Source: Roridomyces roridus (lineage: Eukaryota; Basidiomycota; Agaricomycetes; Agaricales; Mycenaceae). Taken from it: a stretch of DNA of 64,000 nucleotides. The stretch covers positions 1,054,001 through 1,118,000 of the forward strand of contig JARKIF010000013.1 of assembly GCA_029378245.1 (NCBI GenBank), given 5' to 3'. Below, piece by piece: positions 5,474-56,455 of this stretch (its first letter is position 1; each line of letters begins with the position of its first letter). The notes under the pieces were generated by a model that ran no database searches, had not been told where the DNA came from, and saw nothing but the letters and a program-made list of their open reading frames with translations. Position numbers and translations under genes: made by a program.

Positions 5474-5765
5474 ATGCGTTTCAACCTCATCTTCAGTTCC
5501 ATCATCGCTTTGGTGGCAGTGACTCTTGCTGCCGCCACGCCCGTGGTCAGTACTACACTGTTTGCATTGTCAATGAGCTGAATCACTTTGCAGGCTCAAA
5601 CCAAGGGCAGCCTCGATTTGAGAGTTACAGGTTCCATCGTCAAGTGAGTACTTGCGCTAGTTCTTCTGCGCTCCGTCGCCTCTTCGTCTGGAAATCTCGT
5701 ACTCATGTTGATTTTTTAGGTGTGTCGATGAAGGATGCGAGCAGGACGACGCGCCAGGGTGGTGA
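5474..5765 (+). CDS. Small secreted single-core peptide, Kex2-peptide family (possibly decaying)
   Basis: Three exons (5474-5545, 5594-5643, 5720-5765) give about 55 residues: a 24-residue signal peptide ending AAATPV, the leader AQTKGSLDLRV, and a C-terminal CVDEGCEQDDAPGW. Both introns sit at the same positions and phases as in the intact members. The core keeps the C-x4-C spacing but lacks the Lys-Arg immediately before it (only Lys remains). A second core-like unit, GGEGCDHNSGF, lies just after the stop but one base out of frame, so an ancestral two-unit precursor seems to have been frameshifted. The 3' sequence matches other family members. It may still produce a short secreted peptide, or be on its way to a pseudogene. 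Confidence 0.55.
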
Positions 5766-7814: not shown

Positions 7815-8127
7815 CTAGTCGTCATTGTGGTCACACCCCCCGCCGAGGCACTCGGGAAGAAGCCTTTTCTTGGAATCATTGTGGTCGCAGCCCTGGCCGA
7901 CGCACTCGGGCAAGGTCCGCTTCGAGTCGTTGTGGTCGCAGCCCCCACCGAGGCACTCGGGCAAGGCCCGCTTGGACTCGTTGTGGTCACAACCCCCGCC
8001 GAGGCACTCCGGCAGAAGCCTTTTCTTGGAATCATTATGGTCGCATCCCTGGCCAACGCACTCGGGCAAAGTCCGCTTCGAGTCGTTGTGGTCGCAGCCC
8101 TCACCGAGGCACTCGGGCAAATTGCGC
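7815..8127 (-). repeat. Six in-frame tandem coding repeats, 51-54 bp period
   Basis: Exon 3 of the peptide precursor is almost entirely a tandem repeat. Units 1, 3 and 4 are followed by KR (51 bp period) and units 2 and 5 by KKR (54 bp). Units 2-3 and 5-6 resemble each other as pairs, indicating duplication of a two- or three-unit block. Confidence 0.85.
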
Positions 8128-8349
8128 CTAAGATTCAAGATGAACACAGGAATTCGCTCAGTAGTGAGTTCTCACTTGGCGGCGGCAACTGTATCAACGC
8201 GGATGTCGAGCCTGCCCTTGAGTTGAGCCTGTGTGTGGTTCAGTTCATTGACCAATAATTTGAATGTAGCAGTCGCTGACCACGGGTGTAGCAGCAACGA
8301 GAGCCACCGCCAAAGCGACGATGAAACCGAGGACGAGGTTGAAACGCAT
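7815..8349 (-). CDS. Kex2-processed repeat peptide precursor, six units (LPEC type)
   Basis: Three exons (8281-8349, 8176-8228, 7815-8127) encode 144 residues. Exon 1 is a 23-residue signal peptide (starts MRFNLVL, ends VAATPV). Exon 2 is a leader starting AQLKGRLD and ending in Lys, completed across the second intron to Lys-Arg. Exon 3 holds six 15-residue units: NLPECLGEGCDHNDS, TLPECVGQGCDHNDS, LLPECLGGGCDHNES, ALPECLGGGCDHNDS, TLPECVGQGCDHNDS and LLPECLGGGCDHNDD. Units are separated by KR or KKR, classic kexin (Kex2) sites, and the last ends at the stop. Each unit has two cysteines spaced C-x4-C, suggesting a disulfide loop or another crosslink. The most likely product is a set of near-identical 15-mers secreted after cleavage. 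The biological role is unknown. No homologue of a peptide-modifying enzyme (UstYa/DUF3328 type) was recognised nearby. Confidence 0.88.
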
Positions 8350-8446
8350 GTTGGATTGGAATTATCTCGAGGGGTTCACTGGCAAGTATGTAGCTTGTAT
8401 GAAGTCGGGAGAAAGGAGGACTGGTGAAAGTCGTTCCATCGTCGCT

Positions 8447-8454
8447 GTTTTATA
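8447..8454 (-). promoter_or_regulatory. TATA box of six-unit peptide gene
   Basis: TATAAAAC on the minus strand lies about 100 bases before the ATG and is followed by a GATGGAACGA block, matching the family promoter. Further upstream, a GCATCAATCCCGT block is shared with the promoter copy near 41980. Confidence 0.65.
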
Positions 8455-8559
8455 TCATACGGTTCTGTTCACTCGATAGTAAGTTAGCTTACTTGCAAAG
8501 TATTTTGGATCCAGCGCCCATGGATGGATGGCCCCAAAACCCGACGCGTCAACGGGATT

Positions 8560-11000: not shown

Positions 11001-11106
11001 TGATTGGAGTGGGATTCGAACCCACGCCCGTGAAGACCAGAAAGTAGGTGCATCTAAGAGATGCTGGTCCTGAATCTGGCGCCTTAGACCACTCGGCCAT
11101 CCAACC
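11001..11106 (-). tRNA. tRNA-Leu (CAG) with intron
   Basis: The minus strand folds as a class II tRNA. The acceptor GGTTGGA pairs with TCCAATC (one G-U), with discriminator A at 11001. The D-arm region is GGCCGAGTGGTCTAAGGC, the anticodon stem CCAGA/TCTGG, and the loop TTCAGG is interrupted after position 37 by an intron of about 26 bases. A leucine-type variable arm follows, then the T-arm GTGGG-TTCGAAT-CCCAC. The anticodon is CAG. An ORF over this region on the same strand is a shadow of the tRNA. Confidence 0.93.
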
Positions 11107-14521: not shown

Positions 14522-17197
14522 ATGGCGACGATGATAGGCAACACAGTCCGCGACGTCCTCGTCAGCCGCGGGCTCAACATCTCCTACGACTCTTCTGGCG
14601 ACCTCACATGGGTCGACCCTTCCGATGGCACCGAGTGGGTCTACAACGGTGGTGACATTGCCTGGGTGCGTCTTCACCCCCTCCTGCTATTCAAGATTCT
14701 GAGGCCCTGTCCGTAGGTCCTCGCATCCATGGCCCTTGTGTGGATCATGATACCCGGCGTGGGTTTCTTCTACTCTGGCCTCCTGCGCCGCAAGAACGCG
14801 CTCAGCATGATCTACCTGAGCATGATGACCGTCGCCGTCGTCTCGTTCCAGGTGCGTCTTGCTCTGCTCTTACTTGAGTAAATTTGCTCAGGCGTCGTAG
14901 TGGTTCTTCTGGGGCTTCTCCTTGGCCTTTTCCGAGACCGGCAGCGCCTTCATTGGCGACCTCAAGTACTTTGCTCTCCAAGGCGTATTGGAGAAGCCCT
15001 CCATCGGCTCTACGCGTATACCCAGCATCGTATTCTGCATCTACCAGCTCATGTTCGCTGCCATTACGTGCGTCTTGTCCCTTCCTTCTTCTCGAGCCTT
15101 GAGGCGGTTTTGCTGGCGTCAAAGTGCGATTGGGGGGCTGTAACAAACCTTGCTTGGCTTTCCTTCTGCGCTCTCTGCGGAGACAGCCAAGCCATCCCCT
15201 AACTGGCGGAACGATGTGGCGGCAGCGCCCATTAGACTCATCCGTCGTTCCGCCTGCATTCCGCGCATTAGCCTGCCTGATCGATTAAATCTGATTCCTC
15301 CGCGCCAATTTCATATTACTGACCTCCATTCATAGCCCGATCCTCGCCATCGGCGCCGTCGCGGAGCGCTCACGTCTGTGGCCGCTCATCTTCTTCGTCT
15401 TTGCGTGGAGCACGCTCGTGTACGACCCCATCGCGTGCTGGACGTGGAATAGCAATGGCTGGTATGTGTCTTGTCTTTTTCTTGTACCCACCCCTCCTCC
15501 TCCTCATTGTATCTGCCCCCCTTGCCGCCACCCACACCATCCTCTTTTCCCTCTCAATCTCTCGCGTCACCACCCCGACTCACTCAATACCACAGGTCCT
15601 TCGTCCTCGGTGGCCTCGACTTTGCCGGTGGCTCGCCCGTGCACATCTCCTCTGGCTCGGCTGCCCTCGCGATTAGTGTGTACCTTGGCAGGCGGACGGG
15701 ATGGGGAACTGCGCGGTGAGTGATATGCTATTTTGTCCTGCGTAGGGAGGGAGGAGCGGGAGCGTGCTGAACTGGCGATGAGCTGGCGGTGCTGGGGACC
15801 CTGACGTGGCAGTCACGGTCTCGCGCCTTCAGGACAGCTTCCACCAAGCCCTCTTGTTCCTCGCCCTTGCTTTCTCCTCCACACAGCGCGTTCAGTACTG
15901 ATACCCTCTCAGCCTTGCGTACAAGCCTCACAACACCTCCTACGTGATCCTCGGCACGACCTTCCTCTGGTTTGGGTGGTTCGGCTTCAACGGAGGCTCC
16001 GCCCTCTCTGCCAACCTCCGCGCTGCCAACGCCTGCATCATCACCAACCTCGCGGCCAGCGTCGGAGGTCTCACGTGGATGTTCTGGGTTCGTCTTTACT
16101 CCGTCCTCAATTGAATGAGAATACTAAGGATGTGTATCAGGATTGGCGTCTGGAGCGCAAATGGTCCGCTGTCGGTTTCTGTTCGGGGGCTATTGCGGGC
16201 CTTGTGGCTATCACCCCCGCTTCTGGCTTCGTTGGCGCCCCCGCGTCGGTGCTCTTTGGCTTCATGGCAGGGACGTGCTGTAACTTTGCCACTCAGCTCA
16301 AATTCGTGTTTGGGTACGATGACACGCTTGATGTGAGTATCTTTCCCCGTTTTTTTCTTCACTCCACGGCTCTTCCCACCGTGTTGGCGCTATGCCTTAT
16401 TGGACTCGGGAGCACGGGGGCGGGCGGGCGAGGCTTACACGGTTGTCGCGCACCACATGGGCTCTCATGTGCCTGGGCGATAACAGATAGGTTGGGCCGC
16501 CGCCGGGTGTACTTTTTCCCGCCCGCTCTCCCTGTCTTTCGGGCTTTCGGGTTTTCCTTTCGGGAATCGGGAGTGATCGACCCGGCGCTGCTATTCCATC
16601 CTACCCTTCGCTCCTGTACCAAGGCACTCACTTATTCATTCGCTTTCTAGATCTTCGCATCGCACGCCATCGGTGGTGTCGTCGGTAACCTGCTCACTGG
16701 GCTCTTTGCTCAGTCGCAAGTGGCGTTCTACGATGGGGCGACGGTGATTCCCGGTGGATGGCTTAACCAGTATGTCTTGTTGCTGTGCGTTTGAGGACAG
16801 GGCTGACGATTCCGTGTGCTATAGCCACTATATCCAGCTTGCGTACCAGCTCGCTGATTCGGTCGCGTCCATGTCGTATAGCTTTGTCATGACGGTGCGT
16901 CTATTATTTCGCTCATCTACTCCCAATGTGAATGCTGACGACGCGCGACAGACCATCATCCTCTGGATCATGCACTTCCTCCCTACTCTGCGTCTGCGTG
17001 CGTCCGAAGAGTCCGAGTTACTCGGTATCGACGATGCTGAGATGGGCGAGTACGCTTATGACTATGTTGGGTTGGAGCAGGAGATTGGGCATACGCTTGA
17101 GATGAATGGGGGTGTGGAGGCTGAGACGGGTGGGAGGGAGGGTGATCATAGGCATCATCTCAATCAGGAGAAGTTGCATGATGGGGAGAGTGCGTGA
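14522..17197 (+). CDS. Ammonium transporter, AMT/MEP family
   Basis: Ten exons with nine GT-AG introns encode a polytopic membrane protein importing ammonium. The N-terminus ([13 protein letters not shown]) precedes [19 protein letters not shown], the first membrane segment. Family hallmarks follow in order: [64 protein letters not shown] and [18 protein letters not shown] (first pore histidine), then [30 protein letters not shown] and [17 protein letters not shown] (second pore histidine). The cytosolic tail has [20 protein letters not shown], typical of fungal MEP-type transporters. The start is the first ATG in frame with no coding upstream. Intron 7, at about 16335-16650, is unusually long (roughly 315 bases). 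Paralogue identity (high or low affinity) cannot be told from sequence. Confidence 0.93.
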
Positions 17198-25294: not shown

Positions 25295-26495
25295 ATGGCA
25301 GCAGAAACCACCTCGGAATTCGGCGAACACGGCCACCTCGCCGTTCTGGACCCCGAGTTTGCGCCTTTCGCCGACCTCCTCCCTCCGCGTTCCAAGACCG
25401 ATGTGGGAGTACGAAGGAAACAATTTGAGGATGGGCCCATTGCGGCTTCCATGAAGAATTACGGCGTTGGATTGCCTAACGGTGCGTCTTGCGTTTGATC
25501 CTGTGGGTATATACAAGTGGAATTGAAAGAGTGTAGAATCAACATACGCCGTCAAGGACCAAGAAATCAACGTTGCTGGCCCACCCGCAGGCAAGATCCG
25601 CGTTCGTACGCTCGTCCCCACTTCGTCTGAAGAAGGCAAGACGTACCCACTCTATGTATGGTTCCACGGAGGCGGCTGGACGGTGGGCAACGTCGACATG
25701 GACGACTACCAGCTCCGTCAGCTGTGCGTCGAGCTTCAAATCTCCGTCGTCAACGTCGAGTATCGGCTTGCACCTGAGCATCCGACTCCCATCCCTCAAG
25801 ATGATTGTTATACTGGGATCAAGTGGGCGGTGGAAAACCAGGTGTTGCTGTCGGCCGACGTGAAGAAGGGGTTCCTCGTTGGTGGGTTGTCATCGGGCGG
25901 GCACATCACTGCTGTGCTTGCGCACCGCGCGCGAGACGATCCATGGTTCGAGGGCAGGCGGATCACAGGGCATATCATGCAGATTCCGGCGTTCTGTCAT
26001 CCTGACGCCGTTCCAGAGGAGTGAGTCGGGCTGAATATCCTTGACTTGTTGATTGACGTGGTTTTAAAGGTATAAAGGCTCGCTATTCTCATTCAAGCAG
26101 AATGAAGTCACCCCTGGCCTTTCCGTGGCGGACCTTGAATGGTTTTATAGTGTGTTCTCCGTGCTCACTCTCTCGCTCCTCACACTAAAATTACTATAGA
26201 GCAACTCGGCGGCTCCCCCACCTCGCCAGACGTCTCGCCCCTCCTGCATCCCGTACACGCCGGCCTTCCTCCCGCCGTGTTCCAAATCTGCGGTCTCGAC
26301 CCGCTGCGCGACGAGGGGCTCTTGTATGGTAAGATCTTGAGGAACGACGGCGTCAAGACAAGGGTGCATACTTACGGCGGCGTCCCTCACGGGTTCAATT
26401 ACATGCTGCCCAACATTGCCGCTGCGAAGCGGTGGGAGAGGGAGTATCGGGAGGGTTTGAGATGGATTTTGGATGGGGCGCCTGGCGAGGCGTGA
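25295..26495 (+). CDS. Alpha/beta hydrolase, HSL-like (fold-3) family
   Basis: Four exons encode about 345 residues with no signal peptide, so a cytosolic esterase or lipase is likely. The oxyanion motif is HGGGW (in LYVWFHGGGWTVGN). The nucleophile sits in GLSSGGH, with Ser in G-x-S-x-G. The acid is Asp in ICGLDPLRDEGLLY and the catalytic His is in GVPHGFNYM. VNVEYRLAPEHPTPIP is the family's typical segment after the oxyanion hole. All triad residues are present. A weak TATA (TTTATAAG) lies about 40 bases upstream. The substrate is unknown; fungal relatives act on short-chain or acetylated esters. Confidence 0.9.
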
Positions 26496-26605: not shown

Positions 26606-26944
26606 CTAACACGATACGCCGGTGCAGGGCCTGTTTTGTGCGGCTCTTCCATTGACATTGTGCGCACAACCGTCGCCGATGCACTCGGCCTTGGGAACGA
26701 GTAGTGGCTCTGGCAGACGCCTGAAATCCAAGTTGATATTAGTTTTATGCATTTATGGGAACCCCGAAGTACGCACTTGGCGACAACTTGAAGAGTCGTG
26801 TCAACGATGTCGACGCTGCCCCTTCGCTGGGATTGGTGTGAATTTTTAGTAAAGATTCAGAGAAAGTTCACTGACCACGGGCGTAGCAGCCGCGAGAGTC
26901 ACCGCCAGGGCGATAAGGGAAGCAAATTTAATGTTCAACTGCAT
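26606..26944 (-). CDS. Secreted four-Cys peptide, Kex2-peptide family, single unit
   Basis: Three exons (26876-26944, 26777-26826, 26606-26720) encode 77 residues. A 23-residue signal peptide (MQLNIKF to AAATPV) and a 16-residue leader end in Lys, completed across intron 2 to Lys-Arg, exactly as in the repeat members. The predicted mature part is a single 36-residue peptide. It starts LPEPLLVPKAECIGDGC, continues AHNVNGRAAQNR and ends PCTGVSC at the stop. The core CIGDGCAHN matches C-[LIV]-G-x-G-C-x-HN of the repeat-bearing paralogues. A second cysteine pair, again C-x4-C, at the C-terminus is new, allowing two disulfides. Introns share position and phase with the family. Function unknown. 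Confidence 0.8.
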
Positions 26945-30782: not shown

Positions 30783-32148
30783 TCACGTAACGACAACCGG
30801 CCATCCAGACGAAAAGTCGAGGTAATTGATACCCAGATACGACTGCGATCCAACAGGGTTGCTCTTCGGGATGTAATGGTACACCATGACATCTCGACCG
30901 CTCACCGGGTCGCGGAAGACGCTCTGGCCTTCATAATGGCCATCAGCACTGCTGTCGTGGAAGTAAAGTGGGAAGAACGCACCTCCAGGCGCGTAAATAT
31001 TATCATGCGACTCCAGGACGATAGTTCCTGTCGGGGGGCTGATGTCATCCGTGAGCGGGTGGCCAGCGCTGTCGTAGAACGGTCCCTGTCCGACGGCTCC
31101 ACGGCCGACGCGGACTTTGTATTCGGCACCCGCGGCAGGGTAGGAGGTTGCCTTGGGGAAAAAAACATCAACTCAGTAAGGGAAGAGGAAGGAGGAAAGG
31201 AAAAGGACGCACCCCAGCACCAGGGCTCAACCCATCCGAGAAGAAGCAATAATAGTATGGCTGGCTGCTGGGTTTGTACACAAAGACACCCTCGGCGGAG
31301 CGACCGTTGGCACCAGCAAGGTGCGTCCCAGGGAGCGCCTGCCAAAGTACTCTGTAAGATGGAACTGAGACGAACTAATGAATGAACGCACCGACGCCTC
31401 ATTGTTAACCCCCGGCCAAAGTCCAATCTGATACATTCCATTCCACCACGAGCCAAAGGCAAGCTTCATTCCGCCGTCCGAGTCGACGATGAGGTTCGCA
31501 TCGACTGTAATGCACGCTCAACCGTCGGACGAATTCGAATATCGAATACGCACTGGCATTGAAAAGATCCCCCGGATTACTCCTGATAACCTGCCCGAGA
31601 TCCGTCCACGTCCCCGGCAGCATCGACGGGCTGGTGGCAACACCGATCGCAGACGACTGGCTGCTGAGCGTGGAGACACTGTAGTACAGGGTGTACAGGC
31701 CGTTGATGTAGTTGATATCGGGCGCCCACAAGACGCAGTTACCGGCGAGCTGGATGTTGGAGCAGTTGGGCAGGACAGCGCCGCGGTAGGTCCAGGGTCT
31801 TTGAGTGGTAGTCAGTACGGGCAGAATGAGAATGTATGGTGTACGTACCCAGTCAAAGCCGAACTCGTGAAGATGCCGATGTTGCCATTGGTCGCAAAGA
31901 CGAAATATTCCTGCGCTTACATTAACATTCGAGAAATGGAATGCCAGTGACGATGTGTCGACTTGCCTGGAGTGAGGGATTATACCAAATAGACGGGTCT
32001 CGAACGGAGAGGGTGGCTGGACCAGTGTGAGTTTGCCGCGCACGATGAATAGTAGACCGTTCTTACAGCTGCCCGAAATAGGATTAGGGTATGCGAGGGC
32101 CGAGGCCGCAAGGGACACTAGCGAGACGAAGAGTCGGGAGAAACGCAT
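30783..32148 (-). CDS. Glycoside hydrolase family 43, arabinan endo-1,5-alpha-L-arabinosidase-like
   Basis: A signal peptide (MRFSRLFVSLVSLAASALA) starts the protein, so it is secreted. Introns are numerous. The blade motifs of the five-bladed propeller can be followed: RDPS and WYNPS near the first catalytic Asp, ECKNG-type spacing less clear, APDINYINGLYTLYYSVSTL, IGVATSPSMLPGTW with DANLIVDSDGGMKLAFGSWW, then NGRSAEGVFVYK (presumed acid Glu), SQPYYYCFFSDG, APGGAFFPL and a C-terminal YHYIPKSNPVGSQSYLGINY. This matches GH43 endo-arabinanases, which cut alpha-1,5-arabinan of plant pectin. The junction near 31390 has two possible donors, and only one keeps the Glu block in frame. TATATAAAG lies about 40 bases before the ATG (32186-32194, minus strand). 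Confidence 0.85.
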
Positions 32149-32185
32149 CGAGTTGAGTTGGATGTTCCTTATCGTACGCCCGCTC

Positions 32186-32194
32186 CTTTATATA
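32186..32194 (-). promoter_or_regulatory. TATA box of GH43 gene
   Basis: TATATAAAG on the minus strand, 38 bases upstream of the ATG. Confidence 0.5.
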
Positions 32195-35458: not shown

Positions 35459-37174
35459 CTACGCCTCTGTCTTTTCCAGCTCAAGCGGCCTCTCCACCAC
35501 CTCCTTCGTAATCCTTATATTCTTGATAAACAAAGACGCAATCAGCGCCAACCCCGCCACGGGCACGCCCACCACAAACACCACCCTCAGCGCCTCAGTA
35601 TAACTCCTCACCACCCCCGGAATCATCTCCTGCGGCAACTCGGTGTATATGTTGGTTGGCGACTCGCGCACGACAGATGCCGGCGCCTCTGGTGCATACT
35701 TTCGCAAATACTTTGTGAGCTGCGACGAGAACACCGGCTCTGCGACGCCCAGCCCCATTGTACCGCCAAAGAACTGACCGAATGCGGCCATGGACGTCGC
35801 CTGCCCAAGGAGGCGTGGCGTGTCTTTGAACTCGGCCTGCATCGCTACCAGCGAATTCTGCATACCTAGACCGGTGCCGATCCCAGCGAGGATCTGGAAG
35901 CCGATGATCCGCGATACCGGCGTGGTGGTATTCAGGGTGTATAGAAGCCCTGAGCCGATGGCGAGAAAGAAGGGCGCGCCGACGAGGAAGGGGAAGTAGT
36001 ATCCCGTCATGCTGGCTATTTGGCCAGAGGCAATGGCACTGAGGATGGCGCCGAAGAGGAACGGTAGCAAGTGCACCGCCGAGTTGGTCGCAGTGCGGTG
36101 ACGCACGGCTTGGTAGAAGATGGGGATGTAGTACGCGAAGAGGAGGAGGGTGAAGCGTGTGAGGAATGCGTACAGGATGATCGCGTATACGCTCCGGGAG
36201 TGGAAGATTGAGGTGGGGACCAAGGCGCGATCTTTGAGGTGCATTTCCCAGAAGACCAACGCGATGGCCAGGACGAACGCGACGATGAAGCAAATTATGA
36301 CGGCCGAGTCACCCCACGCCTTGGTGTTTCCGCCCCACTGAAGTGCGAGTACGAGGCTTGTGACAGCACCCGCGATGAGTACAGCGCCGACAAAGTCCAT
36401 CCGCAGGAACTGCGACAAGATGTCCCGTGGGGTGCGCCTGGAGAGGTCCGCGCCCAGTGGTGGCTGCGCTTTAAGCAAGAATATGACGGCGACAAGGGAC
36501 ACTCCGCCGATAGGGAGGTTCAAAAAGAAAATCCACGAGGGGTCCCATGATGGATGAAAGGCCAAAGACGGCACCGAGCAAGCCAAAAAGACGGGGGCGG
36601 TCTTGGATATGGGTGACTTCAGATATAATCTGCATGATTGTGGTGACTGCGAACGACGGTCAGTATATTCCCCGTGCCACAAACGATTAATGAGCTCACA
36701 GATCCCAGCTCCCCCGACTCCAGAAACCGTCCGTCCCACAATGAGCTGATGCACATTCGGCGCGAGTGCAGAAACGAGGGATCCAATCTCGAATATCGTG
36801 ATGGACGCCAGCATGATGTACTTTGCCGAACAGATCCGCAACAACTGCCCGTAGAACAGCAAGAATATGGTTTGTGCGAGGATGAAAGAGGAGGAGACCC
36901 AGCCCTGCAGACTGAAGGCGTTGAACTCGGAGGCGATCCGAGGCAGGGCGGTTGATAGGATCGTTTGGTCCAGGGCGGTGAGTAGCATGGATAATAACCT
37001 GGTTAAGGTCGAGAGTCAGATAAAAACCGAGAAATCGGCAACGACTGACAGTGCGGTGAACACAAGGTAGAGCTTCCGGCCTGTCAATATCTGCGAGGAA
37101 CCCTCTGTCGCCGGCTCGTTAATGCGCTCATTCTGAGGCTGGTTGTGTAGTTGCTGTTGGATTTGGGAAGACAT
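35459..37174 (-). pseudogene. MFS drug:H+ antiporter (14-TM, DHA2-like), frameshifted
   Basis: The start at 37174 (MSSQIQQQLHNQPQNE) and an intron lead into LTALDQTILSTALPRIASEF, the signature of 14-helix MFS efflux pumps. QGWVSSSFILAQTIFLLFYG, APNVHQLIVGRTVSGVGGAG and, after a second intron, DRPRLFGLLGAVFGLSSIMG follow. Next, relatives have a segment of about a dozen residues (GG-[AS]-F-type loop ending in W-R-W) before IFFLNLPIGGVSLVAV. Here that segment is absent and the two sides are in different frames at about 36535-36550. The remaining helices to the C-terminus (RPLELEKTEA) are open and well conserved. I read this as a deletion of about 37 bp that breaks the gene. An assembly error or an unrecognised exon are alternatives. 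Confidence 0.75.
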
Positions 37175-37477: not shown

Positions 37478-38467
37478 TCAAAAGGGAACGCAGTCAAAGT
37501 CCAGACGAAGCAACCCGGAAAAGGCTCGCATCCTCAACGCACGCAGTGCCCACGACCTTGAATCCAGGAAGGCACCGACGCACAGCACATTTCCCCTTGA
37601 TGCAAGCAACGTCCGCGACGTCCGGGATCAAAGTGCAATCCACACCCGTCGTGGAACCTGTGAGGGAGGAGATGGTGTCTGCCGTGCAGCCGCCGCCTGA
37701 ACGTATCGTTAATAAGATAAACAGAGAAGAAAGGAAGGAGGGAAGAAGGGAAACGCACAACTCTCCAAATCCGAACTCGTGTCGATACACTCCCAAGCGC
37801 GCGAGCTGCTGCTCCCGGGAATGCCACACGCCGTCCAGCCCGTCTTGCACGACTTTTGCGCCTCACGACCCCAGTAGTCGTCTACCACGCGGGTATCTGA
37901 AGAACGCTTGCCACGCCCGGCAGTCCCCGACGGCAACGATCGCTTACACTCGCCGTTGTACGAAAAGTACCCGTCGTCGCATTTGTACCCGCAGAGGTCG
38001 CTGCGCCGACAGTTGGGCGTGGAGAAGGCGGGGTGCGTGCAGGTGCGTTTGTCGCTGGGTTTGCAGCCGTGGATCTATGGAAAAGTCGGTAAGTACGCAT
38101 ACATAGCCAACGGGCAGGGATGACGACGCACCTTATCAGTGAGAGCAGTGATAGTCTCGCTCTGCCCGATCTTCCACCCGCTGCGGATGGGTTTGCACGA
38201 TGTGGAGCGGGAGAAGTCGGTAAGGACGCTGACGCAGGTGCAGATTTCCTCTTTCACTAGAGAAGATAAGATTCGAGCATGGAGTAGTATGTATGAGATT
38301 GAATACACACCGTCGATGGTACCGCAGTTGACCCCGCGAACGACGAGGGAGCCACTGACACACGCGCAGACGGTCTCCGGGGAACGAGAGGTACGGGGGG
38401 CGAGGCCTTCGATGATGGCTCCATGGGCGATGACTGCGAGAGCAGCAATGGTGAGGAGGAACCGCAT
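37478..38467 (-). CDS. PriA-like cysteine-rich secreted protein
   Basis: A signal peptide (MRFLLTIAALAVIAHG) is followed by repeated cysteine pairs over four or more exons: ETVCACVSGSLVVRGVNCG, EEICTCVSVLTDFSRSTSC, then CKPSDKRTCTHPAFSTPNC, CGYKCDDGYFSYNGECKRS, WTACGIPGSSSSRAWECID, and the C-terminal GGGCTADTISSLTGSTTGVD with CIKGKCAVRRCLPGF, ending DCVPF at 37478. This arrangement resembles the priA family first described from Lentinula, associated with fruiting primordia. Function is unknown; it is presumably a disulfide-rich extracellular or wall protein. A GRGKRSSD stretch could be a Kex2 site. A damaged tandem copy lies immediately upstream (see 38945-44010). Confidence 0.82.
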
Positions 38468-39011
38468 TCCGGACGAATAATCAATGAATGTAGGGAGAGA
38501 ACGTGGTCGGTGGGCTACCGTGGTGGGGGAAAATTTGTCAATGAGCGAGCAGCTGCATGTTTTTTTCGCGCTTAAAAGAAAGCTGGTGCGACCGAACGCG
38601 ATCGGAATGTGGAGCGATACTTAGGAGCATTCAGGAGTAGTTAATTTATTTGAGACGCCTGGGCGGGATGAAATTTTCCGTCGGAGAGGGTTTCAATGCC
38701 AGAGAAGGGGAGTTGGAGCGAGTGATAGACTCTCGTGGGTTGTCGTGGATATGAGAGCCACCGCCACGAGTTTCGGGCTGGGGCAAGTCGCGGATGGGAA
38801 GATGGACGTCGGGATCAAAGAGGTCGGGATGACTAAGCCGAGCCCCTCTTGCCTGGACCATCGATTTTCCGCGACTGCTCTTTGAATCCGCGTCTGTGTT
38901 CTGCCAGTGGTTTAGGCGGGATTCTCTGATACACCAAACGGCGCGCGAAAAGACTGTCTGAATTGTGTTAAAAAAGTATGTACCCAGCCCAAACCCAGCC
39001 CGGGCCTATGT

Positions 39012-39250
39012 AATAGGTGAGATCAAAAGGGAACGCAGTCAAAGCCAGACGAAGCCTCCCGGAAAAGGCTCGCATCCTCAACGCACGCAGTGCCGCCGCT
39101 CACGACCTTGAATTCAGGAAGGCACCGGCGCACAGCACATTTCCCCTTGATACAAGCAACGTCCGCTAACGTGCAATCCACACCCGTCGTGGAACCTGTG
39201 AGCGAGAAGATGGTATCTGTTGGGTGTCTGCCGTACAGCCGCCGCCTGTG
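39012..39250 (-). pseudogene. 3' fragment of priA-like pseudogene
   Basis: Reads TADTIFSLTGSTTGVDCTL-type sequence, then ADVACIKGKCAVRRCLPEF, CVEDASLFREASSGFDCVPF and stop. It matches the last exon of the intact gene with small indels, and ends abruptly at 39250 where similarity to the neighbour is lost. Confidence 0.8.
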
Positions 39251-39259
39251 GGTTGAAAC

Positions 39260-39850
39260 GTTGACTCCTGGCAAATAATTTGCACCAATATCTTAGGTTC
39301 GGCAACGGGATGTACACATCAAAAACTTCATCCAAGTACGCACCATTGTACACCCGCCATGGTTGAACTTTCAACTGACGGTGAATTCTCAGAGCAGCAA
39401 GGTACTCTCACAACGGCCAGCCATCAAAGTATAAAGTGATGCTCTTGAACAATGTGGCGGTTGGAAAGACCTACCAGACCCAGGCTTTGATTCTGTCCGT
39501 CTCCTTTGGCGTTTGACTGCCATTGATGAAGCTGATTTCGGAACAGGTTTGCGGCTTGCCAGGCACTGCACTCAATTTCGATGAGACCTGCGTGTACAAC
39601 GACGATGCTATGCGGCCGACGTACCTCATTTTGTACAATGCATGAATTGCTGGGAGGACTTTCGATGTACATAGAGATGCCCGAGTGTGTTTAGATTTCT
39701 TTTTGCTTGTCTCTGGGAGGAATTCCGCGGTTGACTTGGGTAAATTTCCCGATTTGTTCAATATATAAGTATGAACATACACAGACTTTCGAAACACTAA
39801 TTGTGAGATCTGATGTTCGAAGAGAGACAATCAAAATCCCATGGTTTGAA
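39260..39850. other. Insert sequence downstream of peptide gene, no gene assigned
   Basis: 39720-39850 carries the conserved 3' region of the peptide family (GTGTTTCGAAAGTCTGTGTA on the minus strand). The minus-strand reading near 39470-39660 (containing EISFINGSQTPKETDRIKAW) has some coding flavour but no supported gene model. Confidence 0.35.
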
Positions 39851-39852
39851 AA

Positions 39853-40159
39853 CTAGCCCTGATTATGCTCGCATCCTTCCCCGAGGCACCCGGGTGAGGT
39901 CCTTTTCGAGTTGTTGTGGTCGCAGCCTTCACCGAGGCACCCGGGGGAGGTCCGCTTCGAATTGTTGTGGTCGCAACCTTCACCGAGGCACCCCGGCGAA
40001 GTCCTTTTCGAATTGTTGTGGTCGCAGCCTTCACCGAGGCACCCCGGCGAAGTCCTTTTCGAATTGTTGTGGTCGCAACCTTCACCGAGGCACCCCGGCG
40101 ACGTCCGTTTCGAGTTGTTGTGGTCGCAGCCTTCACCGAGGCACCCGGGAGAGGTCCGC
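39853..40159 (-). repeat. Six 51-bp tandem coding repeats
   Basis: Near-perfect 51-bp units, each encoding one 15-residue peptide plus Lys-Arg. Differences between units are mostly synonymous (for example AAG CGG versus AAA AGG at the cleavage site). Confidence 0.9.
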
Positions 40160-40396
40160 CTAAAAATCAACATGAGTACCCCCAATTCAATAGGTAGTAG
40201 TGCAAGTACTCACTTGGCGACAGAAGCTGCGTCAACTCGGACGTCGAGGCCGTCCCTGGGTTGAGCCTGCGGAGCAGTGGTTCAGTTCAACTGACGCATA
40301 ACTTCAATACACCAGTTGAGGACTGACCACGGGTGTAGCAGCAACAAGAGTCACCGCCAGAGCGATGATGGAGGTGAGGACGATATTGAAACGCAT
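39853..40396 (-). CDS. Kex2-processed repeat peptide precursor, six units (TSPG type)
   Basis: Three exons (40328-40396, 40214-40266, 39853-40159) encode 142 residues. A signal peptide (MRFNIVL to VAATPV) is followed by a leader starting AQPRDGLDVRV and ending in Lys, completed across intron 2 to Lys-Arg. Five copies of TSPGCLGEGCDHNNS each followed by KR come next, and a sixth variant, TSPGCLGEGCEHNQG, ends at the stop. Units are identical in protein and nearly so in DNA, so the array is recently expanded or homogenised. The core C-L-G-E-G-C-D-H-N matches the gene at 7815-8349, while the first four residues differ (TSPG versus xLPE). The expected product is many copies of one secreted 15-mer with a C-x4-C pair. 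A solo LTR separates the coding region from the family promoter. Function unknown. Confidence 0.9.
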
Positions 40397-40404
40397 GTTG
40401 GATT

Positions 40405-41844
40405 GTGGTGATAACGCTGCCGCCGACTCAACACTCAAACACTACCCAAACAAAAGGGCAGTGGGATCGCGTTAGGTAGACGAAGTTGTTGTTGTGCGAG
40501 GGTGTCTTCTCAGTGACGGAACACTTTGAGTCCGACTGAGCGTTGAAACGGGAACTAAGCAGCGAGACGGTATAAAACCAAGCTCAAGCTGAACCAAGTT
40601 CGATTCGATAGGCCAAAACACAAACTCCAAATCAACCAACACAACCAATCCGAACACAAGCTAACGTTGCCAACCAACGATCACCAAGTTCAATCCCAAA
40701 CCAAACCAAATCCAACAAAGTCCAAAGTCCAACCAAAAACCAATCCAACAAGCACAAGATCACACAAATCACAAGGACAGAGTCCAAGGGCGAGAGGTTT
40801 TAGACAGTAAATGCCAATGAAATGGAGCTTCGCACACAGCTAGGCCTACCAATACAGTGGGGTTCCATTCTACATACTGGGCTTTTATACATGCTGGGTG
40901 TAAATTAAGGAACAAATGAAATGATCATATCCATGAATCTGCACTCCTTTCCGCTCAATAACTGTCCCCCTCTCCGTCCATCTCCAGGCAACATTGGAGC
41001 TCCTGCCGAGCGCTCCACAACCCAACACCGAGGCCCAACTCTGGTCTTGAGTCCTGGTCCTCTGTGCCTTGTATAGTCCTGATTCCTGCTGAGCACCTGT
41101 TTGGTATACGGCTCCTCGAACATCACCGTCTGAGGATACACAGAATGCCTGCAATATCCCAGCTCCACAATCCCTAAACATCACTCCTTTGTGTCAGGCA
41201 CAAGGTTGTCACCTTGGCGCCGTCAACCATTCCTATCCGTCAAGCTCCGCAACTGACTCATCCAAGTGGCACACACAGGGCAACTATCCCTGTCTGTCGA
41301 ACATTGATTTGATTCACTGATCATCCCTGGCAGTCTCGGCAGTCAACCATCAAGATCATAATCCGGCATCTCCAAATCTGATCGGCATTTGATGGTATCA
41401 CTGATTCGAACTCCAGCACCCTGTGATTCCAACAATATTTGATTGAGGTTGACATTTGCAAGTAAACCAGCTGGATTGGGTCATTTAGACTTTCTAGCAT
41501 TCGGCAGACCTCCCTGAGAAGAACATCCAACTCATTTCATTGAGATGTCAGACCAGTTCCAGCCAACAGACGCCCCTGCCAACGACGACTTCCAACTATG
41601 AGAACTCCGGCTTTATCGGTCCTTCGGATGTATCGGATCAAAGGCTCGGTCAAGTCCACTTAGGTTTTGACCGAGGTTCGAAAGTCGATTCTCGCCGTTG
41701 TCAATTCTCTGGCCAGCAGCTCTGATAGCCCTAACCCTCTAGGATCAATAATGCACCTGCTCTGGACCACGGTGATTGGTATAGGCATGAAAATGCTGAT
41801 TTGGTATGTTTTAACACCGAAAATTCCACAGGCTTATCAGTGGT
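40405..41844 (-). mobile_element. Solo LTR (about 1.43 kb) with 5-bp target duplication
   Basis: The element begins TGATAACGC at 40409 and ends GCTTATCA at 41839, giving TG...CA ends with short inverted repeats (TGATAA/TTATCA). It is flanked by GTGGT at 40405-40409 and 41840-41844, a 4-5 bp target-site duplication typical of LTR elements. Removing it joins GAGCCC to the ATG with 13 bases between, exactly as in the relatives at 1534 and 5474. Read on the minus strand, TATAAAAG (40882-40889) would start transcription towards the peptide gene; TATAAAAC on the plus strand (40571-40578) is another candidate. No internal gag-pol remains. Confidence 0.75.
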
Positions 41845-42010
41845 GGGCTCGAAGGTTTTGTTGGTAGCTTGGGAGGAGAATCGTTCCATCGCTGCTGCTT
41901 TATAGCAGTGAGGTTTACTCGATTCGATATTTGGAAACGGCGCCGATGGAGCTTGGAGGCCCCGAAACCCGACGCGCCGACGGGATTGATGCCATTCGGC
42001 TGTATGGGCG
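41845..42010 (-). promoter_or_regulatory. Displaced promoter of the TSPG peptide gene
   Basis: On the minus strand this segment carries the family promoter: CCTCACTGCTATAAAGCAGC (TATA at 41895-41904), then GCGATGGAACGA, AAGCTACCAACAAA and CCTTCGAGCCCA, directly comparable with 5390-5460. A GCATCAATCCCGTC block upstream matches the promoter of the gene at 7815-8349. The LTR now separates it from its coding region by about 1.4 kb. Confidence 0.75.
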
Positions 42011-42999: not shown

Positions 43000-43473
43000 T
43001 GTGGAGAAGGCGGGGTGCGTGCAGGTGCGTTTGTCGCTGGGTTTTCAGCCGTGGATCTAAGGACTCCAGGTAAGTAGTAAGTAAGTACGTACGCATACAT
43101 AGCCAGCGGGAAGGGATGACGCACCTTTCTAGTGAGCGCAGTGATAGTCTCACTCTGCCCGATCTTCCACCCGCTGCGGATGCTGCACGATGTGGATCGG
43201 GAAAAGTCGGGGAGGACGCTGACGCAGGTGCAGATTTCCTCTTTGGATAGCTGAATTAACGATGAGATGCAAGCATGAACTATTATGTAGTATGTATGAG
43301 ATTGAATACGTATTACGCACCGTCAATGGTCCCGCAGTTGACCCCGCGAACGACGAGGGAGCCACTGACACACGCGCAGACGGTTTCTGGGGAACGAGAG
43401 GTGCGAGGGACGAGGCATTCGATGAGAGCCCATGGGCGATGACGGCCAGAGCAGAGATAGTGAGGAAGAACAT
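43000..43473 (-). pseudogene. 5' fragment of priA-like pseudogene
   Basis: Starts at 43473 (MFFLTISALAVIAHG), matching the intact signal peptide. A deletion just after it shifts the frame, so the ETVCACVSGS block is no longer read. Further exons (EEICTCV block, TSC block) are recognisable down to about 43000, where similarity ends at the insert boundary. Confidence 0.8.
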
Positions 43474-44298
43474 TCCGGACGAATTTGAATGAATGTAGGG
43501 AGAGAACGTTGTCGGTGCGCTACCGTGGTGGGTTTGTGGGGGAAATTTGAGCTGGGAGCTCTAAGTTCTTTTGCGCTTAAAAGAAAGCGCGAGACAGGAC
43601 GCGATCGGAGTGTGGAGCGATAAGGGCAATCAGAAGTATGAGACGCCCTGGGCGGGGTGGAATTTTCGTCAGAGAAGGTTTCAATGCCAGAGAAGGAGAG
43701 TTGGGGCTCATCGAGTGATGCGCCGTCATGGAGATGAGACCCATCGCCATGAGCTTCGGGCTGAGAGCGCAAGTCTTGGTGGATCGCGGATGGGAAGACG
43801 GACGTCGGGATCAAAAGAGGTCGGGATTACTAAGCTGAGCCACCCTTGCCTGGACCATCGATTTTTCCTGTTTTCACTGGGTTTCCTTGGAATGTGAGGG
43901 CATCCTCAAACACCGGAGACTTGTGAAAGCTTGGAATGGAACTCTGTGCCCTGGAGTCTGGACCCCTCCCTGGTTTAGGCGCGATTCTCTGACGATACCA
44001 GTACTAAACGCGCGGCGCCGCCTTGTGCATTGACAGCCACTGGCGCTCGTCGACGTCCTCGAGATCAACCTGAAGAATCTGGGAGGCTCTGGAATCGTGT
44101 CTCGCTTAGATCTGCTGACCATTGTCCTCGGGCCACACTCGGGAGTCGGTAGCCACCCAAAATGCTTCCGTGCCCGTGCTCTATTGTGCGCTGTTTGCAG
44201 GCTCACGCACAATGGCGCAGATTTTAGTCGCTTAACGGCCAAATCCCAAAATGGCAAACGCTCTTGGACGAACTTTGGCATTGTTCGTCATGAGCAAG

Positions 44299-45730: not shown

Positions 45731-45736
45731 ACTAAT

Positions 45737-45830
45737 TCTTGACTAGTATATCGGTTCAGTACACCCGCTTGTCATTGTGCCTTTGCGCTCTCTTTCGCGG
45801 GAGAGCAGGGTTCGACTCCCTGGTCGAGAG
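45737..45830 (+). tRNA. tRNA-Asp (GTC) with intron
   Basis: The acceptor TCTTGAC pairs with GTCGAGA (one G-U), with discriminator G at 45830. The D-arm region is TAGTATATCGGTTCAGTA and the anticodon stem is CCCGC/GCGGG. The loop TTGTCA is interrupted after position 37 by an intron of about 21 bases (TTGTGCC to CTCTTT), and the T-arm is CAGGG-TTCGACT-CCCTG. A T-rich run (TTTCTTTTT) directly downstream fits Pol III termination. Confidence 0.88.
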
Positions 45831-45839
45831 TTTCTTTTT
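45831..45839 (+). terminator. Pol III terminator of tRNA-Asp
   Basis: TTTCTTTTT immediately after the tRNA. Confidence 0.6.
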
Positions 45840-46087: not shown

Positions 46088-47342
46088 ATGCCCCCTCCTC
46101 CCCCGGCTTTCCAGTTTGACGGCGACGTACTTTGCATTTGCTTCAACACTTGAAGATACAACTGAACTATCTAGGTGGCGATCGTCACGGGCGCGGGGTC
46201 TCGTCTCGACGGTAAGCTCCCAACGCCTCTTCTCTCGTTACCCTCAAACCTGAATTCAACAGGTGAAATCGGCAACGGCCGCGCAACAGCGATCCTCCTC
46301 GCGCGCCAAGGCGCCAAAGTCGCATTGGTGGACTACAACCTCGCCTGGGCTCGCGAGACAAAACGAATGATCGACGCAGAGGGAGGCGTTTCCGAAGTCG
46401 TTCAGTGTGATGTTACCAAGGAGAAAGAATGTGAGGCGGCGGTGAGGAGGGTTGTGGAGATGTGGGGTAAGGTGCATGTGCTTGTTAATATCGGTGAGTC
46501 TTCCTATTCTTCGTGCTGGGAACGAGCGCTGAGCACTGGGAAAGTTGGGGTGGGTGGGCCGCATGGGAATGTTACTGAAGTCGATTTGGAGGCTTGGGAT
46601 CGGGATTTTCGGATTAACGTGCGTTCTATCTACTACTTGCTGTTTTCTGAGCTGACGTATAATTTTTTTCCCCCGGTACAGGTAACATCCATGGTCATGA
46701 TGTCGCGCTACGCCATCCCCGAAATGAAAAAAGTCGGGCGGGGCGCGATCGTCAACATGTCGTCCGTTTCTGGGCGTGAGTCGTCGTCATTCTGCTTTCC
46801 CTGGTCACTTACCAAGCAAGGACACAGTATTGGGTGGTAATCCCGGCGTGTTATACCCCGTCAGCAAGGGCGCTATTATCCAGCTCACCCGCGCTATGGC
46901 GGCACATCATGGACCTGATAATATTCGGTGAGTGCCCATATCACGATTCACCGCCGTCTTTCAAAGTTGAACGTTGAACTCGTTTAGCGTCAACTGCGTC
47001 GCCCCAGGGATGGTCTACGTACGTCTCTCTAAACCCATCCTGTTTCCAAAGTTGACCTTTTTTTTCGAACAGACACCCATGGTCCGCGGTCGTGGCATGA
47101 CAGATGAACTGCGCCAAAAGAGGATCAACCAGAATCTTCTGCGTCAAGAGGGCACGGGGTGGGACGTTGGCTACGCGATCCTATTCCTCGTCTCACGCGA
47201 AGCGCGATGGATCACTGGAGTCATATTCCCCGTCGACGGTGGGACGACGGCGGGGAACCCGAATCGGCCGGCGTTGGGGGAGGATACGCTGGCGAAGGAG
47301 AGCTTGGGTAACGCGGAGGAAGGTGAAAGTGCAAACAACTGA
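46088..47342 (+). CDS. Short-chain dehydrogenase/reductase (classical SDR)
   Basis: About eight exons, starting MPPPPPAFQFDGD. The cofactor motif is VAIVTGAGSRLDGEIGNGRA (TGxxxGxG-type, spread over two introns), then AKVALVDYN, DVTKEKE and VHVLVNIG (NNAG-like, altered to NIG). The catalytic Ser is in GAIVNMSSVSG and the YxxxK in GVLYPVSKGAI. NCVAPGMVYTPM follows, and the C-terminal block FLVSREARWITGVIFPVDGG is typical. It is a cytosolic NAD(P)-dependent oxidoreductase of unknown substrate. The Asp after the second strand (VDYN) suggests a preference for NAD. The last part is duplicated as a fragment at 54115-54345. Confidence 0.88.
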
Positions 47343-54345: not shown

Positions 54346-56455
54346 CAGTACAGGATCCTGCATAATAAACTCAATAGCCTCCTCGCGGTACGTATCAGGG
54401 ACCATCGTCAAGTTGCGCCCGTCGAGTTGCATTATCATCTGAACGGAAAAAGGGTCAAAATCCCGCCGCCGGGTATGATCATGAGCAAGCAAACACTCAC
54501 CTGAGCCTGGGTATAGTCATCCCAATGCGGTCCTACATTCCTTTCAGTTGGCTTCTAAGGTAGGGGAAAACGAAGATGAGACAACGCACGGCTAATCCCA
54601 CGCCCATCGCTCGGATTCAGCGAAACAGCGAACGAAATCCAATAATCCATCATCTGCACCGACAGCCTATCCGCAGAGGTGGTGTTGAGTCTCCCACCGA
54701 GTGCACCGGCACTAGGCATCATGTACCCAACATCCATGGCATGGCAGACTCCCAGCGATCCTAAAGGATACAACGCAGCGAACGAGGGTGGGAGCGACGC
54801 GTCGGGGTCTTGGAATTTATACACGAACGTCGGAACACGCGCTTTGGTGGACATGTATTGAGAGAATGCGCGACGGTGCCATTCAAAGGCAAAGTCTCCC
54901 ACTGTGGTGTCGTTAATAATTTGAAGAAGGAAAACAAGACGACTCACACACGGCCGCATACCGCTTATACTGGCTGCCCAACCCCCAAGTTTCGTCCCCG
55001 GTACCAAACGGCGAGCCCAGCGCCGGATCGTCGGGATAGAGCTCGAGTATCTTGTCCGCCGCAGCCGCGAGGGCTTGAGCGCCCCGAGGCGAGGGGGTCG
55101 AGGGGACAATGATGTAGTCGCGGATGGTATCCGAGGAGTTCGTATCGGTGGGCACGAACAGTGTTCCTTCATCCTTGTTCGACCCAATCATAACCGGCAA
55201 CGGCGATTTTGGCGTCACTTGCGACAGTAGATTCTCCATCAACCCCCCAGGCCCGTCAATGACGGGGTTGAAGCACAGATTCCCGTATACCGCGCTCGCA
55301 GCCGCCCAACCCTCCAAAATCAGGCTGGTGTTCTCCACGCGCTGCAAACAATCAAAGGTATGCGTCGTGTTGGTCTGTGCTCTGCACTGCGGGACATTAG
55401 AAACCAGAGTCTGCCACGCGGGCTCCCAGCGGTGGGTGTCGAATTGCGGGTCGCGGTAGCTCGATTGGATGATGGCTGCCCGAGCGAGATGCTTGAGGCT
55501 CGGACCGAGGATGTGGATGTCGACACTGTGAGCTCCGGCCGACTCGCCGAAGAGAGTGACTTTGGAGGGGTCACCTCCGAAGGCAGCGATGTTTTGCTTC
55601 ACCCATTGCATTGCGAGGAGCTGGTCTTTCAGACCGATGTTGAGGGAGCCTTTTGTCATGGCTTCTTGGCCTTGTGGAAATCCGAATGGGCCGAGGCTGG
55701 ATTATTTGAGCTGTAGTTATATCTGTGATGAAGCGTATCTACCGGTAGTTCAGACTAGCATAGACAGTTGGCGTTCCCTGAGAAACAGTCAATACTGGAG
55801 GACAAGATCAAATCTATCCGCACCCTTTGAATACTCCGAGCTACGAGCGCACTCCCGTCGTAGAGAGAAGAAGCTCCAGCTTCCGCCATGTCAGATCCGC
55901 TCAAAAGTCGATACGATGCTCACCGATGAAGTCGCCTGCAAGAAGGGTGAATATTAATCCTTCAAAACATTACAAAATCACGCACCTCCGTGAATGAATA
56001 GCATGACAGGAAGCTTCTCATCCACGGCCCCACCAGACGGCCTGAAAACGTTGATGGAGAGGCAATTTTCGGAAATAGGCGTCGATGGGTCCTGGGGAGA
56101 TTGCTCTCAGCACGTCGAACAGAAGAAGCAAGTACCCACCGGTTGTAGACACCCCGGACCAAATTGAGTCGCATTAAACTGCGGGACATCGAGCGTAGCC
56201 TTGAGCGTCGTGGGCATGAACCTGAGGGCTCCGAGGGGAGGTTCAGCGTATGGAATTCCTGTCCGCAGAGTCAAGTTGAAAGCTTCCAACTTCCAAAGAA
56301 CGCGGGTGTAGCCCACCGAGGAACACTTCGACGCTATCTGCAAGCGCAGAGGGCGCGCCGAAGATCTCCGTTTTGCCTAGCTTGACCACCGGTACCGCAT
56401 TGGACACTTGAAGAGCGAGTGCGCCTTGGAGATCCCCACAAGCTTGTGGAGATGC
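54334..56455 (-). CDS. Type-B carboxylesterase/lipase
   Basis: Multi-exon gene. The recognisable protein begins ALQVSNAVPVVKLGKTEIFG, followed by FLGIPYAEPPLGALRF, LPVMLFIHGG (oxyanion hole) and YRLGPFGFPQG-like spacing. The nucleophile elbow is VTLFGESAGAHSVD (Ser in GESAG). The acid is Glu in SNKDEGTLFVP, the catalytic His is in LGVCHAMDVGYM, and WISFAVSLNPSDGRGISR precedes the last exons. The C-terminus is QDPVLFHR at 54334. All triad residues are present. The first exon is uncertain: a hydrophobic MFFKFFLLTLTIIFTILF at about 56618 could be a signal, but I could not join it convincingly. It resembles fungal secreted esterases and lipases; the substrate is unknown. Confidence 0.85.

Follow-up and report, generated by a model that had tools for sequence, protein, structure and literature searches.

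The A1 locus

We have analyzed a stretch of 64,000 nucleotides (the window) located on contig C35 of the mushroom Roridomyces roridus (Mycenaceae, Agaricales). Its minus strand carries A1, a gene modelled with three exons and two introns (Table 1). The core of A1 consists of five copies of TSPGCLGEGCDHNNS followed by one of TSPGCLGEGCEHNQG, with KR between units and a stop immediately after the last one. The first-pass annotation had described here a three-exon secreted precursor with six KR-separated units and a stop, and we could confirm its coordinates, reading frame and introns on the minus strand; the splicing is predicted from the gene model. The second intron splits the lysine codon of the leader KR, so that this site would arise by splicing only, and each of the three parts (signal peptide, leader, core) has an exon of its own.

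The same arrangement was found in the relatives described below. All 12 gene models, a set that includes four decayed, start-less or duplicate ones and leaves aside A5, A6 and the C109/C139 relic, begin with a hydrophobic N-terminus (mean Kyte-Doolittle value 2.67 for residues 5-17 of A1, 3.12 for A2) and have intron 2 inside the K codon; after splicing, 11 of the 12 read KR and the decayed A4 reads KC. The putative signal peptides of A1 and A2 have an AxA-like end, as judged by eye.

The core exon of A1 is a near-perfect 51-bp tandem repeat (period 51, 5.7 copies, score 452 in Tandem Repeats Finder), as a non-coding minisatellite would also be. A degenerate DNA pattern of the ring motif described below, with up to three mismatches allowed, matched the window 14 times, compared with 0.01 times on average in 100 shuffled versions. 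Units 1 to 5 of A1 vary at five DNA sites and all five changes are synonymous, with 10.3 of the 45 sites being synonymous (P ~6e-4). Because the units of one array are not independent, the following figures are descriptive: comparing A1 with A2 over the first five of the six units of each, dN/dS was 0.04 for the C-to-N segment of nine codons and 0.84 for the four codons preceding it; among the six A2 units it was about 0.09; and in the nine C-to-N codons of all 12 A1 and A2 units, eight of the nine third positions were variable, together with two first positions and one second position. The equal exon plan of A2 and an annotated R. roridus protein (P0122) identical to the model of another relative, B3, also speak against a repeat without a gene. 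Given the synonymous-only change and this annotated protein, we rejected the minisatellite reading, which is almost certainly wrong.

Table 1. Location of the genes and other features (window positions unless a contig is given)
Feature	Location	Strand	Remarks
Gene A1	39853-40396	minus	three exons, two introns
A1 exon 1	40396-40328	minus	69 nt, putative signal peptide MRFNIVLTSIIALAVTLVAATPV
A1 intron 1	40327-40267	minus	61 nt, GT...AG
A1 exon 2	40266-40214	minus	53 nt, leader AQPRDGLDVRVDAASVA and two bases of K
A1 intron 2	40213-40160	minus	54 nt, GT...AG, phase 2, inside K codon of leader KR
A1 exon 3	40159-39853	minus	307 nt, rest of K, R, six units, stop
Putative solo LTR	40409-41839	minus	1431 bp, inserted in A1 5' untranslated region
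Putative ancestral promoter and 5' leader block of A1, displaced	41844-41976	minus	TATAAA at 41904
A2, intact paralogue	7815-8349	minus	exon plan as A1; six units, KR or KKR between
B3, intact paralogue	26606-26944	minus	single core; both motif types, CIGDGCAHN and CTGVSC
B1, intact	C35:986294		two units
B2, intact	C35:1031313		three units
B6, intact	C35:1222198		single core
B7, intact	C35:1203271		single core; identical protein on C78 (B8)
B4, intact	C475:124876		single core
A4, decayed group A	5474-5765	plus	retains signal peptide and promoter block; KR changed to KC; core out of frame
A5, decayed group A	1534-1750 (end approximate)	plus	retains signal peptide and promoter block, not the core
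A3, decayed group A	C35:1297k
A6, decayed group A	C35:1053454
B5, start-less	C35:952127		ATT instead of ATG
Array relic	C109/C139
Ammonium transporter	15805-16650		Pfam
Alpha/beta hydrolase (Abhydrolase_3)	26151-26495 and 25527-26024	plus	tail to tail with B3
GH43	31405-32187		Pfam
MFS transporter	35459-37015		Pfam
Short-chain dehydrogenase	46175-46840		Pfam
Carboxylesterase	54913-55701		Pfam

An insertion upstream of A1

The 5' untranslated region of A1 is interrupted by an insert that we read as the solo LTR of a retrotransposon. It has the ends TGATAA...TTATCA and is flanked by a 4-bp duplication, CCAC, at 40405-40408 and 41840-41843. A genome search produced 29 matches, that of A1 included, and four other copies (one on C423, two on C2 and one on C223) were 99% identical over the whole 1381-base query. 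Target duplications were found for the copies of C423 (CCGT) and C223 (GCGG), and the inspected C2 copy had none. The two copies of C2 are on the same strand and 12.4 kb apart (219955-221334 and 232388-233767), and they may represent the ends of a full-length element.

The LTR separates the last 12 bases upstream of the ATG from the putative promoter block, which has been shifted by ~1.4 kb. Local BLAST aligned this block with the upstream regions of A3 (88% over 95 bases) and A4 (86% over 94), and a composite probe for group A matched it with 97% identity over 61 bases. With the LTR between this block and the ATG, the present expression of A1 is doubtful; the gene may be poorly expressed, silenced, or driven by the LTR. 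The near identity of the four other LTR copies suggests a recent event, and four further group A copies (A3, A4, A5 and A6) are decayed. One could think, then, that A1 was recently cut off from its promoter and that its intact array is a young relic, something compatible with the secretory role discussed below. Against this, LTRs can carry promoters (TTTATA appears ~175 bp upstream of the A1 ATG), the coding part of A1 is fully intact, and A2 and the group B genes are unaffected. We regard the silencing of A1 as a real but rather doubtful possibility. A2 has a TATAAA block adjacent upstream and no LTR; the probe match there was weak (8431-8456, E 0.52), and the 200 bases preceding the gene show 68% similarity to those of A3 and 62% to those of A4. 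A2 is hence a better candidate than A1 for a working array.

A gene family with a common front end and varying cores

Searches of the R. roridus genome with proteins and DNA, together with local BLAST of the extended window, revealed at least eight distinct intact precursors, three of them inside the window, and at least six decayed or start-less copies (A3, A4, A5, A6, B5 and the C109/C139 array relic), all these counts being lower bounds. C35 carries seven of the eight intact ones, within ~236 kb. Weak matches on C90, C124, C223, C442 and C481 (best E 0.06) were kept outside the family count. A1 is therefore not a lone oddity. It is one member of a real gene family that has a common secretion front end and a varying peptide part, with very different cores from one gene to another.

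What the cores have in common is a small motif, C-[LVIT]-G-x-[GS]-C, matched by every one of the 22 units that the eight intact genes contain (B5, with its ATT start, the decayed A3 and A4, and B8, the duplicate of B7, were left out of this count). The A2 units follow xLPEC[LV]G[EQG]GCDHN[DE][SD] and those of B1 and B2 follow N[DN][MR]PCTG[VE]SC[EQ]L. Among the single-core genes, B3 has LPEPLLVPKAECIGDGCAHNVNGRAAQNRPCTGVSC, B4 has FPQPSCTGGGCEQEK plus further residues, and B6 and B7 have cores with the C-terminal end NCTGGGCGSNPGA and TCTGGGCAYN. With one motif of each type, B3 ties groups A and B together. The first-pass annotation had already recognized a multi-copy precursor with KR-separated units, a hydrophobic N-terminus and a pair of cysteines, C-x4-C, able to form a ring, and all this stands. 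It had also given D-H-N as a defining feature, and this part is not supported: the last A1 unit, TSPGCLGEGCEHNQG, shows that the D is not invariant, and D-H-N is present in A1 and A2 units only; the intact group B cores are devoid of it, with an A-H-N in B3 as the exception.

In the 12 units of A1 and A2 both cysteines and the H are invariant, and tyrosine does not appear in any of them. N-x-S is found in 10 of the 12, exactly those that are followed by K(K)R, and is absent from both terminal units, which would be in keeping with a weak site of glycosylation or with a subsite for the protease. The two residues straight after KR are TS, NL, TL, LL or AL in A1 and A2 units and ND or NN in B1 and B2 units. 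X-P pairs at this place are confined to the single-core genes (LPEP in B3, FPQP in B4, MPQP in B6 and MP in B7). The likely product of the repeat-bearing genes is a peptide of 12-15 residues with one six-residue disulfide ring. The C-x4-C rings of oxytocin and vasopressin have the same ring size and a short tail, an analogy of shape only.

We have compared the parts of the six intact group B genes in their 15 pairs. The core exon was less similar than the adjoining intron 2 in 14 of them, the exception being the young pair B1/B2, which is to be taken as a pattern and not as a test because the pairs share genes. Identities of core exon and intron 2 were 41% vs. 92% for B1/B4, 68% vs. 90% for B1/B3 and 87% vs. 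88% for B6/B7, and exon 1 was 81-98% identical. Compared with intron 1, the core exon was less similar in 10 of the 15 pairs, with two ties and three pairs in the opposite direction; compared with the 3' flank, it was less similar in nine of the 15, the five pairs of B7 having 3' flanks of 38-44% identity. Group A contrasts with this, as A1 and A2 are 75% identical in exon 3 and 68% in intron 2. Positive selection on the group B cores could not be shown, pN and pS being both high and similar between the cores of B3 and B2, so that turnover of segments and indels fits better than an excess of dN. A clustered family in which signal, leader and core have separate exons, only splicing creates the KEX2 site (AA|GCGN), and the ring is conserved although its exon changes, by replacement or remodelling, faster than the adjoining intron, could be generating a species-specific repertoire of ring peptides by a diversification similar to that of cone snails. 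We put this forward quite tentatively and would sooner doubt it than affirm it, the counts for intron 1 and the 3' flank being weaker than that for intron 2.

Relatives in other organisms and in the annotation

Relatives with units enclosed by KR, the homologues that the first-pass annotation had called for, appeared inside the genome (A2), and two protein-set searches gave relatives from R. roridus only. The A1 protein gave no match at E <= 1 among 4901 candidates from a set of 5.8 billion proteins. A profile of eight sequences was scored against the 8000 candidates with most words in common, of which three reached E <= 10, all from R. roridus. Scoring in both searches is confined to candidates that are close in length and have short words in common, and short unannotated genes of other Mycena genomes would be missed. 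Among the public R. roridus proteins, P0122 is letter-for-letter the spliced model of B3. The other two disagree with our models: P0123 includes B7 but has a different start and a longer N-terminus, and P0124 combines the signal peptide and leader of B2 with a core that is spliced differently. For A1 and A2 the protein-set candidates included no annotated protein, which suggests that genes of this kind can escape genome annotation.

Domain searches added little. At E <= 1, Pfam gave three matches for A1, two for A2 and none for P0122. The sole match above cut-off was that of the MuDR transposase (PF03108) on A2 (25.8 bits for a cut-off of 25), with zero passing stretches, which we take for an artefact of the repeats. 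A2 also matched zf-RING_6 (E 0.44), far below its cut-off, and no match of A1 has an independently passing stretch. NCBIfam had no match for A1 or P0122, and the one match of A1 among solved structures (E 0.82) is meaningless. Five core strings had zero occurrences in 5.39 million PMC papers, and no such family was found among the papers listed for KEPs, kexin-cut basidiomycete peptides, disulfide bonds and KEX2, or hypervariable KEX2 families. For the R. roridus genome one paper was listed, on the luminous fungi of Japan, and for Mycena or Roridomyces genomes none.

Processing and possible roles of the peptides

Reading processing, disulfide closure, secretion and role from the sequences, we consider about evenly balanced the proposal that A1 and its relatives are secretory precursors processed by KEX2 that release small disulfide-loop peptides, probably for biotic interaction. 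The signal peptide would send the precursor into the ER. The two cysteines, with four residues between them, could form a disulfide bond, giving a C-x-G-x-[GS]-C ring of six residues followed by a short tail. Cleavage after KR or KKR would be the work of a KEX2-type protease, and removal of the basic residues that of a putative KEX1-type carboxypeptidase; the X-P pairs that follow KR in some single-core members could be taken off by a STE13-type dipeptidase. Small ring peptides released in this way would act extracellularly. We searched the genome for the enzymes. P_proprotein (KEX2 type) had two matches, on C480, and DPPIV_N (STE13 type) had four exon matches at one place on C46, which is not specific proof of KEX2 or STE13 because control genomes also matched (one of the 14 for the former and five of the 14 for the latter).

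The release of several KEX2-cut peptides from a single chain, as proposed for A1, is known from Ece1. It is found also in Ustilago Rep1 (PMC6339444) and in the dikaritins (PMC7329392). None of the three showed any sequence relation to the A1 family in the searches made. The closest system is that of the KEPs of fungi, which are widespread. They are defined by a signal peptide, repeats and KEX2 sites (PMC6339444, PMC7329392). A1, A2, B1 and B2 have all of these; the other four of the eight intact genes (B3, B4, B6 and B7) are not strict KEPs because they have no KR-separated repeat beyond the leader KR, B3 having its two ring motifs in one core. Like the A1 family, KEPs combine a signal peptide and KR-separated repeats with no convincing other domain. 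Their distribution is typically narrow, 2560 of 7878 being given without homologue in PMC7329392. The A1 family differs in that its paralogues keep the leader and the ring motif while varying the core and the copy number (1-6), single-core members included. Conopeptide precursors work in a similar way, with a conserved signal peptide and pro-region and a hypervariable mature peptide framed by cysteines, some of the genes having these parts divided among three exons (PMC7900195). The genes described here are fungal, with tandem cores and a very small ring, and no homology to conopeptides is shown or claimed.

Four mushroom species are reported to yield detectable KEP peptides, and six kep knockouts of Coprinopsis cinerea had no axenic phenotype, from which a part in biotic interaction was proposed (PMC9769878). 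The A1 family would point in the same direction: its genes duplicate, decay and change their cores, keep the leader and have no relative outside the species in the data searched, which in our view makes an interaction with competitors, grazers or partners likelier than a conserved developmental signal. No antibacterial activity was seen for the KEP peptides studied in PMC9769878, which are different from those of the A1 family.

The multi-copy KR design would also suit a ring peptide for self-signalling or mating, sensed by the fungus itself and akin to the two-cysteine alpha pheromones of ascomycetes. These, exemplified by RFCHLPGQGCSK in Xylona, and alpha-like KEPs of basidiomycetes exist, and they are, as in the A1 family, short KR-delimited peptides with a cysteine pair and some X-P after KR (PMC6339444). 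The X-P pairs of B3, B4, B6 and B7 are indeed like a STE13 signature. However, the array units of A1, A2, B1 and B2 have neither X-A nor X-P after KR, and the cysteines are four residues apart, not six as in the two alpha pheromone examples printed in PMC6339444, where the mating pheromones of basidiomycetes are given as a-type only. Besides, the cores of the paralogues are strongly divergent and several copies are dead. STE2 was unmatched in the genome, a weak argument, as none of the 14 control genomes matched either. Overall, a self-signalling role appears unlikely.

Metal binding through C-x4-C-D-H-N, one of the roles suggested by the first-pass annotation, would agree with the invariance of C, C and H in A1 and A2. 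It is weakened because D-H-N is not common to the family: among the six intact group B genes an H follows the ring only in the first motif of B3, and in B6 and B7 it sits elsewhere in the core. The N-x-S before KR, moreover, might just as well serve as a sequon for glycosylation or as a subsite for the protease. As a family trait this role is disfavoured and we find it very improbable. Even less credit goes to a dikaritin-type RiPP cyclised by UstYa enzymes. The logic of secretion and KEX2 cleavage is common to both and the genome has at least 28 exon-level UstYa matches, but none of the matches listed is on the cluster contig C35, and the units of A1 and A2 have no tyrosine to offer. Returning to the KEX2-processed precursors of small ring peptides, the constant leader, the splice-made cleavage site and the changing ring cores would provide a concrete system for the evolution of secreted peptides in mushrooms, and the family supplies defined masses to look for. 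The calculated [M+H]+ values are 1488.548 (oxidised) and 1490.563 (reduced) for the A1 15-mer, and 1600.600, 1572.605, 1541.636 and 1485.573 for oxidised A2 units.

Neighbouring genes

Other genes of the window are listed in Table 1. The alignable 3' flanks of B1, B2, B4 and B6 overlap the Abhydrolase_3 stretch found beside B3, and two more matches to this stretch are located at C35:1118054 and 1120079. The recurrence of the hydrolase stretch beside group B genes indicates that the duplications probably carried both genes. Closer to A1, secreted-looking frames with cysteines are found on the minus strand at 37494-37862 and 39023-39292 (CIKGKCAVRRCLP.FKVV), and on the same strand those at 38075-38620 and 43150-43560 have similar N-termini (MRFLLTIAALAVIAHG and MFFLTISALAVIAHG). 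They possibly correspond to a duplicated gene with fragments. A frame ending in CVY[ND]DDA[MI]RPTYL is placed tail to tail with A1 (~39435-39645, plus strand) and with A3 (L016:1000-1275); by eye, we take it to recall the end of PARP catalytic domains. Finally, Rfam indicated a tRNA gene at 11001-11106 on the minus strand that was absent from the output of ARAGORN, which gave instead an odd match with a four-base anticodon at 45736-45831.
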